Origin: Candidatus Gastranaerophilales bacterium
GTDB lineage: Bacteria > Cyanobacteriota > Vampirovibrionia > Gastranaerophilales > Gastranaerophilaceae
Assembly: GCA_944323705.1 (NCBI GenBank)
Contig: CALUTM010000011.1
Span: 1-43,934, forward strand
DNA: 43,934 nucleotides
Direction: 5' to 3'
Below, in pieces: positions 6,525-42,726 of the stretch. A program made the position numbers and the translations under genes. How positions within the stretch are numbered: position 1 is the first letter of the stretch; the number at the start of each line of letters is the position of its first letter. The notes beneath the pieces were generated by a model. It was not told the origin of the DNA, did not search any database, and was given only the letters and a program-made list of their open reading frames with translations.

Positions 6525-6697
6525 GTTTACCCCTTCTATCCCCCTATTTACCCCTCGTTTATTTACCTCCCTTAAATTTCCCCCCCTGCTATTTTCTCAC
6601 CCTCTTTGCATTTGCCTCCTCCCTTATTTTCCCCCCCCTCATTTACCCCTCTATTTACCCCTCTATTTACCCCTCTATTTACCCCTTTATTTACCCC
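6525..6697. repeat. GGGGTAAAT/ATTTACCCC minisatellite tract, intergenic
   Basis: Five exact ATTTACCCC units start at 6641, 6653, 6665, 6677 and 6689, a strict 12-nt period with TCT or TTT spacers. An isolated exact unit lies at 6546 and a GTTTACCCC variant at 6525. Between these are decayed C-rich copies (6555-6640). The last unit ends at 6697, directly against the -35 box of the next promoter. The same repeat occurs in murC, rsmD, after polA, after trmD and near 42.35 kb. The rest of the 6250-6846 gap is AT-rich, with no gene seen. Confidence 0.95.
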
Positions 6698-11263: not shown

Positions 11264-13921
11264 ATGCCAAAAACATTAATATTAATAGACGGACATGCTC
11301 TTGCTTACAGACAATTTTTTGCACTTGAAAGAACTGCAATGAAAAACTCGGAAAATCAACCGACCTGGGCTGTATACGGTTTCTTTAAGTCAATATTCGA
11401 TTTACTTTCCAAAATCCATCCCGACTATATAGCGGTAGCATTTGATGTTGGCAGAAGAACCTTCCGTACCGAAAAATTTGAAGAGTACAAGGCTAATCGT
11501 GAAGCTATGCCTGACACGTTAAGAAGCCAATTGGGAGTTATATGCGAAGGGCTTGAAGCCTTTGAAATTCCTATCATCACTAAAGAAGGATTTGAAGCCG
11601 ATGATATTATCGGAACTATTTCAAAAACAGCTTCCGAAAAAGGGCATAATACACTTATACTAACGGGAGATCAGGACAGCTTTCAACTTGTAGACAAAAA
11701 CGGAAGCGTGAAAGTGCTTATACCGACTAAAGGAGAGCTGCTTGAGTATGATTGGAATAAAGTCTATGAAAAACTCGGAGTCTACCCTGATCAAGTAACA
11801 GATTATAAGGGGTTAAGAGGGGATACTTCCGACAATATACCGGGAATTAAAGGTATCGGAGAGAAAACCGCACAAAAACTCCTCAGCAGGTATAAAACCC
11901 TTGAGGATGTACTTGCGGATTGTGAAAATATCCCGGAAAAAGCAGTAAAACAAAAAATATGCGAACAAAAAGATATAGCAATACTGTCAAAAGAATTGGC
12001 AACTATTATAAGAAATGTAGATTTGGATTTTAATATAGATACCGCATCCGTTAATTTGCCTAAGATTGAAAATGTTTCCGCTTTTTTAAGGAAAATGCAA
12101 TTCTACACATTTATAAAAAATATCGACAAAATTCTCTCATCTTTTAATAACAACGCCACTCAGAACCAAAATCTGAGCCTGTTTAATATTGGAGACGGAG
12201 TTCAGCAGAATTTATTTTCTCAAGCAATGAAAAACACTGTAGAAGATAAGCAATTTGAATACCAAATTGTTACGGAACCAAACAAGTCAGAGATAATAGA
12301 GAGAATAAAAAAATCCCCGAGAATTTCCGTAAAATGGTATTCAAAAGAAGATTTAATAACCGGATGCTCGGTCTCAAACGGGGAAAGTTACTATTTTTCA
12401 AAGGATTTTATCAATGAGTTAAAGCCTATAATAGAAAATCCCGATATAAAGAAAATAGGCTATGACGCAAAGTCTGATTACCACTTGCTTTTAAATAACG
12501 GATATTCGCCAAAGGGATTGGAATATGACGTTTTATTGGCAAGCTACGTGAAAGATCCAAACCGCAAACATACACTGGAAGCACAGGCACTTGATTTTAT
12601 AAATCATATTATGACAAATCGTGACGATGAAATAAAATACGCTTGTGACGAAGCTTATACCATTTTCAGACTGTATGAATACTGGATACAAAATCTTGAT
12701 AAAGAGGAACAAAACCTTGTTAACAATATCGAAATTCCGTTGACAATAGTTCTTGCAAAAATGGAACACACAGGCGTTGCGATTGATTGTGAGTATTTAA
12801 AAGAACTGTCCGCATATATGACGGAAAAGCTTGCCGAGCTTGAGGACTTAATCTACCAACTGGCAGGTGAACCGTTTAATATAAATTCACCCAAACAGGT
12901 CGCGGAAATACTTTTTGATAAGTTAGAACTTAAAACTAAGAAGAAAAAATCCCGTTCCACTAGTGCCGAAGTTCTGGAGGAACTTGCACAAGAATACGAA
13001 ATTTGTGATTATATTCTTCAACACAGAAAGTTTGCAAAGCTAAAATCGACTTATACTGATGTATTACCTACTCTCATAAGCAAACGTGACGGCAGGATAC
13101 ATACAACGTATAATCAGGCTCTAACCGTAACGGGAAGGCTCTCGTCGTCAAATCCGAACCTTCAAAATATTCCGATAAGGACTGAAGAGGGGAATAAAAT
13201 CAGATCCGCTTTCTGTGCGATGGACAAAGAAAATTCCCTTATACTCTCTGCCGATTATTCACAGATTGAATTAAGGCTCCTTGCACACGTATCCGGGGAT
13301 GAGCATCTTATACACGCTTTCTCTACAGGAGAAGATATTCACACTATGACTGCCGCAAAAGTTTTTGGTGTAGATTTAAATGAAGTTACCAAAGAAATGA
13401 GACGACGAGCTAAAGCCGTTAATTTCGGTATAGTTTATGGCCAATCAAAATACGGGCTTGCCCGAAACCTCGGTATCAGCAATAATGAAGCTCAAGAATT
13501 CATCGATAAATATTTTGAAACATATCCGAGGGTAAAAGAATACATGAATTATGAAATAGACTTCGTTAACAAGCACGGGTATGTCGAAACCATTTTCGGA
13601 CGTAAACGCTATCTTGCATCAGAACTTGCAAGTTCAAATTTTCAGATACGGGAATTTGCACAACGAGCAGCCATCAACCAGCCGCTTCAAGGCACCGCCG
13701 CAGATTTAATCAAAATGGCAATGATTAGAGTCGACAAGGAAATTGAAGGGTTAAAATCAAAAATGATAATGCAAGTTCACGACGAATTAATATTTGAAGT
13801 TCCCAAAGACGAATTGGAAGATATAAAATCAATCGTCCTAAGGTGTATGGAACTTGACCAACCTCTTAAAGTTCCGCTCGTTGTTGATGTCAACTACGGT
13901 CCGAGTTGGCGAGAGGGGTAG
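11264..13921 (+). CDS. polA: DNA polymerase I
   Basis: Repair and Okazaki-fragment polymerase, 885 aa. Residues 1-~285 are the 5'-3' flap exonuclease (LILIDGHALAYRQFF, FEADDIIGTI, LRGDTSDNIPGIKGIGEKTA). Residues ~310-480 are a 3'-5' exonuclease-like domain in which the Exo I Asp-x-Glu is missing (ISVKWYSKED), while aspartates matching Exo II and III remain, so proofreading is predicted inactive. The polymerase domain has motif A (LSADYSQIELRLLAH), motif B (RRRAKAVNFGIVYGQSKYG) and motif C (IMQVHDELIFEVP). The longest frame begins at TTG 11246, but ATG 11264 with GGGAG upstream is the better start. The stop TAG lies within a GGGGTAGGGGTAAAT repeat string, so the last residues are read from the edge of the repeat. 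Convergent with a permease gene. Confidence 0.97.
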   Translation: MPKTLILIDGHALAYRQFFALERTAMKNSENQPTWAVYGFFKSIFDLLSKIHPDYIAVAFDVGRRTFRTEKFEEYKANREAMPDTLRSQLGVICEGLEAFEIPIITKEGFEADDIIGTISKTASEKGHNTLILTGDQDSFQLVDKNGSVKVLIPTKGELLEYDWNKVYEKLGVYPDQVTDYKGLRGDTSDNIPGIKGIGEKTAQKLLSRYKTLEDVLADCENIPEKAVKQKICEQKDIAILSKELATIIRNVDLDFNIDTASVNLPKIENVSAFLRKMQFYTFIKNIDKILSSFNNNATQNQNLSLFNIGDGVQQNLFSQAMKNTVEDKQFEYQIVTEPNKSEIIERIKKSPRISVKWYSKEDLITGCSVSNGESYYFSKDFINELKPIIENPDIKKIGYDAKSDYHLLLNNGYSPKGLEYDVLLASYVKDPNRKHTLEAQALDFINHIMTNRDDEIKYACDEAYTIFRLYEYWIQNLDKEEQNLVNNIEIPLTIVLAKMEHTGVAIDCEYLKELSAYMTEKLAELEDLIYQLAGEPFNINSPKQVAEILFDKLELKTKKKKSRSTSAEVLEELAQEYEICDYILQHRKFAKLKSTYTDVLPTLISKRDGRIHTTYNQALTVTGRLSSSNPNLQNIPIRTEEGNKIRSAFCAMDKENSLILSADYSQIELRLLAHVSGDEHLIHAFSTGEDIHTMTAAKVFGVDLNEVTKEMRRRAKAVNFGIVYGQSKYGLARNLGISNNEAQEFIDKYFETYPRVKEYMNYEIDFVNKHGYVETIFGRKRYLASELASSNFQIREFAQRAAINQPLQGTAADLIKMAMIRVDKEIEGLKSKMIMQVHDELIFEVPKDELEDIKSIVLRCMELDQPLKVPLVVDVNYGPSWREG

Positions 13922-14004
13922 GGGTAAATCAGAGTAAATCAGGGTAAATCATAGGGGGAGGGGGGTAAATAGTAAATAGTAAATAGTAAATAGTAGATAG
14001 TAAA
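13916..14004 (+). repeat. GGGGTAAAT units merging into an AGTAAAT heptamer array
   Basis: Exact GGGGTAAAT units lie at 13921 and 13962, with degenerate AGAGTAAAT and AGGGTAAAT units between. From 13971 a 7-nt tandem repeat, AGTAAAT, runs for about 4.7 copies with one G substitution. The tract begins on the polA stop codon and fills the gap between polA and the convergent permease gene. No separate terminator was seen. Confidence 0.92.
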
Positions 14005-27086: not shown

Positions 27087-28535
27087 TTATACATTTACCG
27101 TTTTAACATTCAAAAGCCTTACAGCCTCCAGATTCTTACCCAATGAAGTTATGCTTCCCGCTCCCAAACCTATAACCGCATCGCCTGACTTAAGCGTAGG
27201 AAGAAGGGTTTTTGCAACATCCGCCATACTGCCTTTAATATATTCCGCCCCATCCAAAGATTTTGCGAAAGCTTCACCGCTAACACCTTCAATCGGTTCT
27301 TCCGAAGCTGCATAAACATCCGTAACAATAATTCTTCCTGCCGCATCAAATGCTTGAGCAAACTCTTTCCACAAAGCTTTTAATCTTGTATATCTGTGCG
27401 GCTGAAAAACCGCAACAACATTTTCCTTGCCAAATTTCAAAGCGGCAGCCTCCAAAGTTGCTCTTATTTCAGTCGGGTGATGAGCATAATCATCATAGAC
27501 TTTAATTCCGCCGAATTCGGCAACTTTCTGAAACCGACGTCCCATACCGCTAAACTGTTCAAAATACTTCGCGAACTCTTTTAGGCTGCTTTCGGTAATT
27601 TCATCGACAGGGTTTACCCCCTCATTTACCCCCTCATTTACCCCTACATTTACCCCCTCATTTACCCCTACCCCAGCCCCCTCGTTTAAGGCGGCAACAA
27701 CAGCAAGAGTATTGTACACATTATGGACACCAGAGAGTTGTATTTTCAACTTCAGCAATAAAGTACCGTTATGATAAATCTCAAAGCTTGTCCCGTCTTG
27801 AGCATAACAAATATTTTTTGCCGTATAATCGGCATCATTAAGCCCGTATGTTATAAACTTACCGCTTAACAACCTTGTACCATTGTTATCGTTATTTATC
27901 AGGACTTTTTTTGATTGCAAAATCACTTTATTAAAAGTCTCAATCAAATCCGACATTCCGTTTTTATAAAAATCAAGATGATCCTCTTCCAGATTGTTTA
28001 TGACAAGAATATCAGGATTATACTTTACAATTGTCCCGTCACTTTCATCAAGTTCTGCAATAAAATATTTACCGTTCCTGTGCTGAGCATTTGTGTTGTA
28101 TTCGGGAATAATACCGCCATCCACAAAAGACGGCTCCAAACCCGCTTTAGCTAACACATAAGATGCCATTCCGCTGGTAGTTGTTTTTCCGTGTGTACCT
28201 GAAAAACCGATAAAGCACTTGCCTGCCTCCTGAGCGGATTTTGCAATTTCTTCCAAAAGGTCCGAGCGGTGAAGGATTTTTAACCCCAACTCCTTTGCCC
28301 GTATTAACTCGGGATTATTATCTCTTATCGCACTGCTTTTTACTATAACGGCATCAGCAGGTACATTTTCCGCACTATGTCCGATAAAAACCGTTGCACC
28401 TAACTCTCTTAATTTATCTATATATTTAGACTCTGCAATGTCAGAACCCGACACCGTATGACCGTCCTCCAGTAAATACTTTGCAAGCCCGCTCATTCCG
28501 ATTCCGCCGATTGCAATAAAATGATATCTTCCCAC
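27087..28535 (-). CDS. murC: UDP-N-acetylmuramate--L-alanine ligase MurC with a repeat-derived loop
   Basis: Cytosolic ligase that adds L-alanine to UDP-MurNAc. It has the N-terminal Rossmann motif HFIAIGGIGMSGLAKYLL, the ATP loop FSGTHGKTTTSGMA, the HNVYNTLA helix and the C-terminal YDDYAHHPTEI. The frame can be prolonged upstream to 28637, but that overlaps rsmD; a GTG at 28535 has GAGG at 8-nt spacing and gives the normal N-terminus (482 aa). Residues ~284-308, between the central domain and FSGMGRRFQ, are an insertion of GVN-E/V-GVN units encoded by five 12-nt repeats (27612-27668). Family members lack this, so it should be a surface loop that leaves catalysis intact. Confidence 0.95.
   Translation of the reverse strand: MGRYHFIAIGGIGMSGLAKYLLEDGHTVSGSDIAESKYIDKLRELGATVFIGHSAENVPADAVIVKSSAIRDNNPELIRAKELGLKILHRSDLLEEIAKSAQEAGKCFIGFSGTHGKTTTSGMASYVLAKAGLEPSFVDGGIIPEYNTNAQHRNGKYFIAELDESDGTIVKYNPDILVINNLEEDHLDFYKNGMSDLIETFNKVILQSKKVLINNDNNGTRLLSGKFITYGLNDADYTAKNICYAQDGTSFEIYHNGTLLLKLKIQLSGVHNVYNTLAVVAALNEGAGVGVNEGVNVGVNEGVNEGVNPVDEITESSLKEFAKYFEQFSGMGRRFQKVAEFGGIKVYDDYAHHPTEIRATLEAAALKFGKENVVAVFQPHRYTRLKALWKEFAQAFDAAGRIIVTDVYAASEEPIEGVSGEAFAKSLDGAEYIKGSMADVAKTLLPTLKSGDAVIGLGAGSITSLGKNLEAVRLLNVKTVNV
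27612..27685 (-). repeat. In-frame GGGGTAAAT minisatellite within murC
   Basis: Units at 27612 (GTTTACCCC variant), 27624, 27636, 27648 and 27660 (exact ATTTACCCC) have a strict 12-nt period, followed by the decayed units CCCCAGCCCC. On the coding strand each unit reads GAG or GTA then GGG GTA AAT, i.e. Glu/Val-Gly-Val-Asn. The 12-nt length keeps the murC frame whatever the copy number. Confidence 0.95.
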
Positions 28536-28611: not shown

Positions 28612-29232
28612 TTAGTATTTTTCCGTAAATTCATCATTTAGCAGAAAGGTGACATTTTTCCCGCCGTAGTTTTTTTGTTTTATAATATCAAACCCCGCAA
28701 AATCAATGGATTCCGAATGTTCTACAATGAGTATTTTCCCAAACGGCAAGTTCTCCGAACTCTCACCATCCACGTTTTTATCAGGGGATTTACCTTTGTA
28801 TTTACCCCCTAATTTACCCCCTAATTTGCCACGTAGTTTCATTAAAATATCTTCATAAATTCCGCTTTTATACGGAGGGTCAATATATATAACGTCAAAA
28901 TTCTCCTCTGTTTTGAAAATAAGCTTTTCACTGTCACCAATCACCAAATCGGGCTTAAGAGAAAGTTTTTCATAATTCTTTTTTATAATTTGTGCCGCTT
29001 TAATATTCTTTTCAAACACTTTGACTCTCTCAAACCCTCTTGACAAGGCTTCCAACCCCATAATGCCGGAGCCGCCGAATAAATCCAAAAAACTCTTTCC
29101 CTCAAACTCTCCGACTATTGAATACAGGGTATTAAAAACTCCCATTCTGACTTTAGAAAGGGTTGGTCGCGTTATATTTTCATCGGGAGCCAATAATTTG
29201 CGTCCTTTATAGATTCCTGCGGTTATAATCAT
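28612..29232 (-). CDS. rsmD: 16S rRNA (guanine(966)-N2)-methyltransferase RsmD with a repeat-derived insertion
   Basis: Rossmann-fold methyltransferase of 206 aa that modifies G966 in 16S rRNA. Motifs: ITAGIYKGRKL and RPTLSKVRMGVFNTL at the N-terminus, the SAM loop FLDLFGGSGIMGLEALSRG, and the catalytic YIDPPYKSG. Between YEDILMKL and ILIVEHSES an insertion of about 30 residues includes GGKLGGKYKGK (~133-148), encoded by GGGGTAAAT-type 12-nt repeats. A TTG one codon upstream exists; ATG 29232 overlaps the TGA of the preceding gene. murC begins 76 nt after its stop, an AT-rich gap that could carry a secondary promoter. Confidence 0.93.
   Translation of the reverse strand: MIITAGIYKGRKLLAPDENITRPTLSKVRMGVFNTLYSIVGEFEGKSFLDLFGGSGIMGLEALSRGFERVKVFEKNIKAAQIIKKNYEKLSLKPDLVIGDSEKLIFKTEENFDVIYIDPPYKSGIYEDILMKLRGKLGGKLGGKYKGKSPDKNVDGESSENLPFGKILIVEHSESIDFAGFDIIKQKNYGGKNVTFLLNDEFTEKY
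28788..28835 (-). repeat. In-frame GGGGTAAAT minisatellite within rsmD
   Basis: Exact ATTTACCCC units at 28800 and 28812, with decayed units at 28788 and 28824, again with a 12-nt period. The coding strand is read in a different frame from murC (GGT AAA TTA GGG), giving Gly-Lys-Leu-Gly units. Confidence 0.9.
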
Positions 29233-29945
29233 CAAAGTTCCAGTTTTTCTATTTTTACATTAAAAACACTTTCAATATCAATGCCGTTCAGGATACCCGT
29301 TATCAAATCCTCCGGCGAAAAACCCGACTCAAGATGCGGCACCAGCCCCAGTATCTTAATATTAGTATACTCTTCTATCACTCTAGGTATCGCCGTAAGC
29401 AGATTTTTAGGGCAATCTTCCGTTATATTGTTAATAATAACCCCTCTGATGTCGATTCCCTTTTCCTGAGCCGTATATATAGAAAGCAGAGTATCATTAA
29501 TCGAATCATCCCGCGGAGTCACTACAAACAATAACGGGACCTGCAAATGCTTTACCATATCTGCGGTTTGAACACCCGCTGCCAAAGGACTCATTATCCC
29601 GCAGTCGCCGTCAATGATTGTACACTCGGACATTGCCGTAATTCTGTTATACTCACTGTTAATCAAGTCAATATCTATTGGCTCGTTTTCCAATTCGGAA
29701 GCTATCAGCGGTTCCAAATTTGATTTAAACAAATACGAAAAATGGGTATCAATGTATGGATCTATTGTTTTAATATAAGTCAAATCAGGCGATTGCATAA
29801 AACCGTTTATTTCAATTCCCGCAGTTTGAACAGGTTTATAAACACAGGTTGAATAGCCGAGACTTTGCATGGTAGCCGCAATACCTGCCGTTATAAACGT
29901 TTTACCTTCTTTTCTGTTTGAAGATGTTACATACAAGTTTAACAT
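29232..29945 (-). CDS. BioD-like P-loop NTPase (dethiobiotin synthetase family)
   Basis: Protein of 237 aa with an N-terminal P-loop SSNRKEGKTFITAGIA, a following YKPVQTAG (typical of BioD and of the N-terminal domain of phosphotransacetylases), CTIIDGDCGIMSPLA, and PLLFVVTPRDD. These fit the BioD/AAA_26 group. The P-loop is RKEGKT rather than the canonical TxVGKT, and no other biotin gene is in the window, so dethiobiotin synthesis is plausible but not proven; a regulatory P-loop role is the alternative. It overlaps yjbQ by 7 nt and rsmD by 1 nt, all in the long minus-strand operon. Confidence 0.8.
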   Translation of the reverse strand: MLNLYVTSSNRKEGKTFITAGIAATMQSLGYSTCVYKPVQTAGIEINGFMQSPDLTYIKTIDPYIDTHFSYLFKSNLEPLIASELENEPIDIDLINSEYNRITAMSECTIIDGDCGIMSPLAAGVQTADMVKHLQVPLLFVVTPRDDSINDTLLSIYTAQEKGIDIRGVIINNITEDCPKNLLTAIPRVIEEYTNIKILGLVPHLESGFSPEDLITGILNGIDIESVFNVKIEKLEL

Positions 29946-42309: not shown

Positions 42310-42726
42310 ATGTTAAAACAAAATGATACAATAGGGGTAAAAGGAGGGGTAGGGGTAAATAGGAGAGAACTACAAATAAACTCTATTTACAGACCCAATA
42401 TAGCGGAGGATTGGAAAATGGACGAGAATATACAAATAAAAGAAGTTGACGGAACGGACATAGTTCAGTACAAGCCGTCGGGTGTTTGCTGCAAATTGAT
42501 GCAGATGAGAATAAAAAATGACATTATTGAAGATGTAGAGTTTTTTGGCGGCTGCAACGGAAACCTTAAGGGAATCGGGATTTTAATCCGCGGTATGAAT
42601 ATTAATGATATTATTCCAAAACTAAGCGGACTTCCTTGCGGAAGCCGACCGACAAGCTGCCCGGATCAGCTTACAAAAGGTATCGAAGCATATTTGGAAG
42701 CAAAGAAAGCTGCTGCTGTGAGCTAA
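42310..42726 (+). CDS. TSCPD-domain protein (TIGR03905-like) with a repeat-containing N-terminal extension
   Basis: Protein of 138 aa. Residues 37-138 are a complete TSCPD domain of the TIGR03905 type: YKPSGVCCKLMQMRI, VEFFGGCNGNLKGIG, and the name-giving GLPCGSRPTSCPDQL, with conserved cysteines likely binding metal. Function is unknown; in other proteins the domain is fused to vitamin B12-dependent ribonucleotide reductases. Two starts are possible: ATG 42310 (AAGGAG at 9 nt) and ATG 42418 (GGAGG at 8 nt), the latter giving the normal family size. The extra 36 residues include GVKGGVGVN, encoded by GGGGTAAAT repeats. A TTG at 42304 is less likely. Confidence 0.88.
   Translation: MLKQNDTIGVKGGVGVNRRELQINSIYRPNIAEDWKMDENIQIKEVDGTDIVQYKPSGVCCKLMQMRIKNDIIEDVEFFGGCNGNLKGIGILIRGMNINDIIPKLSGLPCGSRPTSCPDQLTKGIEAYLEAKKAAAVS
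42334..42360 (+). repeat. GGGGTAAAT units in the N-terminal extension of the TSCPD gene
   Basis: GGGGTAAAA at 42334, then GGGGTAGGGGTAAAT at 42346-42360 with an exact unit at 42352. The string GGGGTAGGGGTAAAT is the same as that over the polA stop and at the end of the murC tract. Read in frame it encodes Gly-Val-Lys and Gly-Val-Gly-Val-Asn. Confidence 0.9.

Follow-up and report, generated by a model that had tools for sequence, protein, structure and literature searches.

How does a short DNA repeat come to lie in the reading frame of an essential cell-wall enzyme, and by what process did it arise there? We examined this question in a contig of 43,934 nucleotides from a Candidatus Gastranaerophilales bacterium (contig CALUTM010000011.1; the window below is this whole stretch). 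The enzyme is MurC, UDP-N-acetylmuramate--L-alanine ligase, which is essential for the cell wall. Its gene (27,087–28,535, minus strand, stop codon included) encodes 482 amino acids from a GTG start and contains three Pfam Mur ligase domains. It matches TIGR01082, the NCBIfam equivalog model for murC, over model positions 2–447 of 449 with a score of 420.9 bits; as this exceeds the curated cut-off of 335.1, we consider the gene call right. The start is probably the GTG at 28,535 and not the first ATG of the open frame; it was chosen by a GAGG a few nucleotides upstream and by alignment with relatives. Within the gene, a 12-nt tandem array of five GGGGTAAA(T/C) units (27,613–27,668, minus strand) encodes GVNE or GVNV at residues 290–308. 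Tandem Repeats Finder describes it as 4.7 copies with a period of 12 nt and 90% matches. Its coding-strand sequence is GGGGTAAAT-GAG-GGGGTAAAT-GTA-GGGGTAAAT-GAG-GGGGTAAAT-GAG-GGGGTAAAC, that is, five GVN units. An earlier sequence-only reading of this DNA had described five 12-nt units translated as Glu/Val-Gly-Val-Asn repeats between the HNVYN helix and SGMGRRF, and its coordinates, translation and placement all hold. The array is flanked on its coding 5' side by a degenerate G-rich run, GAGGGGGCTGGGGTA (27,669–27,688, minus strand), which encodes EGAGV; judged by its sequence and its alignment with ALNEAGV of relatives, it is probably a decayed copy of the unit or the old native AGV.

The repeat exists at the level of DNA and not only of protein. 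In the array, Gly-Val is spelled GGG GTA all five times and Asn is AAT in four of five cases, whereas GGG GTA AAT would be expected for a random GVN of this genome with a probability of 0.034. This codon uniformity, together with the intact 482-aa frame, bears out the earlier claim that the repeat is in frame and made at the DNA level. Elsewhere in the window the word recurs: TTTACCCC occurs 22 times against 1.8 expected, a count never equalled in 100 shuffles. The adjoining gene, rsmD (28,612–29,235, minus strand), encoding the 16S rRNA G966 methyltransferase (TIGR00095, 131 bits against a cut-off of 117.5), carries the repeat too. Two 12-nt units at 28,801–28,820 (minus strand) are read there in the other open frame (LGGKLGGKYKGK) within an insertion of ∼26 residues, in place of which the relatives examined have a short RGK-type turn. 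An intergenic array at 6,526–6,697 (minus strand) holds seven copies of GGGGTAAA, of which five are spaced 12 nt apart. In another array, at 13,921–14,004 (plus strand) and just downstream of a gene, copies of GGGGTAAAT are followed by a run of the 7-mer GTAAATA (13,965–14,004), which looks like the core without its G-run. Two cores 18 nt apart lie near the start of a TSCPD-domain open reading frame (42,334–42,359, plus strand), where they encode GVKGGVGVN.

The MurC insert, of ∼28 extra residues, resembles a tolerated flexible linker. The earlier reading had proposed that a structural model and an alignment of MurC from related genomes be used to judge the loop. In an AlphaFold2 model built on 51 relatives, the mean pLDDT is 90, but residues 290–310 (27,606–27,668, minus strand) have values below 50, falling to ∼35, and are predicted to be disordered; they lie between helices 270–286 and 315–327, both well modelled, at the end of the central domain. 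The gene is intact and has one full-length match in the genome, which suggests that the array is tolerated. The GVN linker has no evident function and the loop may well be neutral. We see no reason to regard it as functional: most congeners do without it, and sister genomes differ in its sequence and length, which drift.

From the MurC proteins of 61 genomes of the genus and of one further genome, G146, we took the segment bounded by HNVYN and GMGRRF, which gave 62 readable sequences. GVN arrays are present at this site in seven and missing from 55, and the segments vary in length, so that the alignment reveals a lineage-specific loop. The array was not found at this site in the other members of the family examined. 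Most segments of the genus have 37 residues and are of the type HNVYNTLAVIAALNEAGVDLRKIKDYFKEFTGMGRRF. The segment of the window has 65 residues and 12-nt units. In G146, 12-nt units also occur (ETGVGVNVGVNAGV), followed by a run of N: at ∼2430–2520 of locus L155 the array abuts an assembly gap or a masked stretch. The remaining five genomes carry 15-nt units with two or three copies of GVN, in segments of 64 (G181), 62 (G186), 54 (G202), 54 (G185) and 57 (G177) residues. The copy number of the units thus differs among close relatives. In a phylogeny that excludes the loop, the distribution of the array requires three changes, forced by the starred branches. A single origin was rejected, as no bootstrap tree gives one change. 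Judged from these sequences, similar loops appear to have grown independently, in three separate changes, at one site of MurC in related species.

At this site, one native G-V-N or G-V-D is present in many relatives that have no array. Of the two nearest array-free relatives of the clade with 15-nt units, one, L012, has GCTGGGGTAAAT, that is GCT GGG GTA AAT, encoding AGVN, and the other, L173, has a one-residue variant. The native site is spelled exactly GGGGTAAAT in two array-free relatives, L012 and L146. Because array-free relatives hold a native G-V-N/D, and two of them hold exactly this word, growth in place is likelier than entry from outside; the earlier wording of a repeat inserted into or entering the gene therefore needs revision. 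The exact seed is found at two of eight native GVN sites without arrays, a number too small to prove biased conversion. The simplest reading of the alignment is that the native GVN codon string was the seed, multiplied in place, independently and with differing unit lengths. The sequence-only reading had also held that conservation of the same residues in distant MurC proteins without the DNA repeat would mark a selected protein feature. A single G-V-N/D is indeed conserved without the repeat; the repeated loop is not.

MurC is one of several proteins with in-frame arrays in this genome. The others include RsmD, a CoA-disulfide reductase-like protein, a NuoJ-type subunit, IlvD, a Nif3-like protein, a TPP enzyme and MurI. 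Antisense copies of the word lie in the genes for BamA and a PcrA/UvrD-type helicase, and the insertions of MurI and RsmD hold much non-repeat sequence. IlvD offers a second comparison between species. Its loop 1 reads AAGINVTL or AAGIDVTL in array-free relatives and ATGVNGVNGVNVTL, made of 9-nt units, in G146. In G181, G185, G202 and G177 it reads AAGVN followed by 12-nt units that vary in number and decay, and G186, a relative of these four, is without such an array. In loop 2 of IlvD of genome G086, the native FKGGxY has become FKGGKSTGGKYREGKY, which uses the other open frame of the word (the GGKY frame). A second dispersed repeat is found in frame in IlvD loop 1 at L229 (G204), L224 (G195), L225 (G175) and L248 (G173). 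It is a palindrome of the CCCTCTCC..GGAGAGGG type encoding TSPQPSPQGEG or similar, and in the genome of the window this palindrome is counted 32 times against 0 reversed controls. Loop 1 of IlvD is thus one permissive loop that accepts two unrelated repeat families.

The genome of the window (1.93 Mb in 87 contigs) contains 283 copies of the 9-letter word GGGGTAAAT against 22 of the reversed word, a ∼13-fold over-representation, and the tandem pattern occurs 70 times against 1 in the control. Of 63 genomes of the genus, 61 contain the tandem form, defined as two words 0–10 nt apart; it was not detected in any of 22 genomes from other families of the order. The word is strongly enriched in all six sampled genomes of the genus. 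Across the family, counts are high in genera g1, g8, g28, g34 and g40, mixed in g29 and g21, and near the control in most; this patchy distribution could help in the search for a genetic cause. The 10-mer GGGGGTAAAT has 144 hits, the first 100 of which represent 58 loci; its reversed control has 15 hits in all. As the word sits at more loci than chance seeds would give, some spreading or biased conversion of near-matches seems needed: either sites bound to decay are maintained by their expansion, or copies of the word also reach new sites.

The structure of the arrays was analyzed in 45 regions of the same genome, most of them selected around occurrences of the word in its GGGGG form. Gaps between words are 8–17, 51–55 or 108–109 nt, with GGGG(G)TAAAT retained as the core. 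The similarity of short spacers is 83% within arrays and 45% between them, which indicates that units are made locally. Among the 28 short-gap runs in these regions, 14 have two units, five have three, six have four, two have five and one has six. Inside genes, all 16 short gaps (≤20 nt) are multiples of three, compared with 12 of 39 outside (p = 1.5e-6); at the level of clusters the figures are 9 of 9 and 2 of 17 (p = 1.8e-5). This contrast suggests that the process is blind to frame and that selection filters its products, in a comparison that measures survival and not formation and is partly circular, since an array out of frame breaks the open reading frame and is then scored as non-coding. 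Of 78 clusters, 35 lie inside open reading frames of at least 100 amino acids, in a sample picked around the word and with coding space not normalised. At the intergenic loci L127:1–56, L124 and L131, a single array can contain G-runs of 4 to 9 G, as homopolymer slippage predicts; in coding arrays the run mostly stays at G4–G5. A minisatellite family with units of 53–55 nt (GGGGGTAAATGAAGTTTGTAGGcttaACGcCCGActGGTCCGCATGgttgAAAA) carries the core at its boundary at the intergenic loci L119, L120, L123, L129, L130 and L132.

We favour, at a probability of roughly two in three, a genus-level, genome-wide process of tandem duplication anchored on GGGG(G)TAAAT, with selection keeping the in-frame products in permissive loops. 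The seed would be a set of codons that spell or nearly spell the word (native G-V-N or G-G-K-Y), and the word with a few flanking bases would be duplicated head to tail. Unit length would be set locally, at 9, 12 or 15 nt in genes and mostly at 8–17 or 51–55 nt between them, and copies would later be gained, lost and mutated. In essential genes, the survivors would be only multiples of three in permissive loops, yielding a flexible GVN linker. The comparison of genomes shows several parts of this scheme: lineage-specific gain, three changes at one site, copy-number differences, locus-specific spacers and the frame filter. The chemistry of duplication would most simply be replication slippage or template switching promoted by G-runs, which could form G-quadruplexes. 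Such promotion is plausible given the G4Hunter score of 1.7 for the MurC array, a value that expresses predicted quadruplex potential only; a candidate quadruplex-forming sequence is (GGGGTAAATGAG)4. Two observations count against duplication of this kind. Growth from chance seeds alone leaves the number of loci with GGGGGTAAAT unexplained, and pure slippage would not add the non-repeat sequence in the MurI and RsmD insertions. A bolder version, which we put forward only tentatively and judge rather doubtful, invokes a motif-specific process that recognizes GGGGTAAAT-like DNA and might be, for instance, a pathway of nuclease/repair or of polymerase template switching. Such a process would actively write and multiply the word at near-matching sites throughout the genus, so that essential enzymes of different species repeatedly gain new loops at matching positions.

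The main rival to in-place growth is that pre-made units were carried into the gene, by ectopic template switching, gene conversion or a small mobile element that copies the word or a short array, and expanded afterwards. Such traffic would account for a word present at many more separate loci than chance allows, for the 11-nt unit GGGGTAAATGA that recurs on several contigs of G086 and a 10-nt unit that recurs in G156, and for the intergenic loci that share the 53–55-nt family with its core. The palindromic dispersed repeat encoding SPQPSPQGEG in IlvD loop 1 of other genomes likewise means that insertion into that loop does occur. However, the arrays in MurC and in both loops of IlvD sit on native word-like codons, their spacers are locus-specific, and the coding arrays show neither a flanking duplication nor a terminal inverted repeat nor a flank in common. 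Carriage as the source of the coding arrays thus seems unlikely to us; a mixture of both routes is possible.

That the GVN loop is a selected feature of the MurC protein, a flexible linker or binding loop of which the DNA repeat is merely the encoding, would fit its appearance in three lineages at one position and the usefulness that flexible Gly-rich linkers can have. The 55 of 62 congeners without it argue otherwise, as do codons repeated at the DNA level, the drift in sequence and length among sisters, the predicted disorder, and the gain of arrays by IlvD in the same lineages. We regard selection for the loop as improbable because exactly this word has also multiplied in other frames, in antisense and between genes. 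Least probable of all, and very unlikely, is an artefact of assembly or gene calling, such as a collapsed or chimeric repeat or a pseudogene. The assembly is a draft in 87 contigs, the array of G146 lies next to a run of N, and arrays terminate several contigs, but the 482-aa frame is intact with murC above its curated cut-off, the same loop is found in six other assemblies (five with complete in-frame arrays), and several other genes carry arrays in frame.

Growth in place from a native seed can be set beside several known classes of repeat. Gastranaerophilales are non-photosynthetic gut relatives of the cyanobacteria, to which Nostoc belongs, and the G-rich heptamers with which we compare the word are related to cyanobacterial heptamer (STRR-type) repeats. 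Such heptamers, dispersed and quadruplex-forming, were described by Rehm et al. (2015; PMC4692102) as GGGAATC in Xanthomonas and GGGGA(C/T)T in Nostoc; their unit is fixed at 7 nt, four units are preferred, and they are reported to be under-represented in coding sequence. The repeat described here is similarly a G-run joined to an A/T-rich word, over-represented and dispersed in the genome (283 against 22 for GGGGTAAAT), arranged in tandem, variable in copy number between related species and, by prediction, capable of forming quadruplexes. In contrast to the heptamers, only a core of 9–10 nt is fixed, unit length (8–17 and 51–55 nt) and spacers are locus-specific, and arrays lie repeatedly in the reading frame of housekeeping genes; the preference for four units was not seen in the 28 short-gap runs. 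The GGGGTAAAT repeat therefore shares with known G-rich repeats the G-rich word, its dispersal and its variability, and departs from them in lacking a fixed unit and a preferred unit number.

Rickettsia palindromic elements (Ogata et al. 2000; reviewed in PMC10969869) are palindromic units of ∼150 bp that integrate whole and in frame into unrelated genes. They resemble the present case in being a dispersed repeat that lies in frame in unrelated metabolic and housekeeping genes and lengthens tolerated regions of proteins. Unlike these elements and coding MITEs, which are palindromic and ∼100–150 bp long, the units here are of 9–15 nt (12 nt in MurC), non-palindromic, in tandem and apparently grown in place. 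Bacterial coding minisatellites or VNTRs change copy number by slippage, with unit lengths that keep the frame. The MurC array shares with them its in-frame units and changing copy number, and differs in that one core is common to many unrelated loci and the same loop is hit independently in different species. A role of the word as a DNA uptake sequence, which would occur as single non-tandem copies, is ruled out by its tandem form (70 against 1 in the control). We found no earlier description of GGGGTAAAT repeats in bacteria among the 15 best of 367 matches in open full text.

These genomes offer a natural before-and-after series from a DNA repeat to a protein loop: a native GVN, an exact seed, two, three and five copies, and decayed copies. 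The series covers essential enzymes, independent lineages and matching positions, and dozens of genomes of the genus could be used to measure seed choice, the rate of expansion and the frame filter. Low-complexity loops in genomes of this group may reflect mutation and not function, and should be read with caution. Caution also applies to assemblies, in which contigs tend to break at GGGGTAAAT arrays: in the genome of the window, arrays form the start of contig C6 (L127:1–56), the start of C9 (L130:3–120) and the end of C12 (L132:5320–5382). These ends suggest that the assembly fails at arrays or that the arrays are variable within the population. The ends of C9 and C12 share one 55-nt unit.
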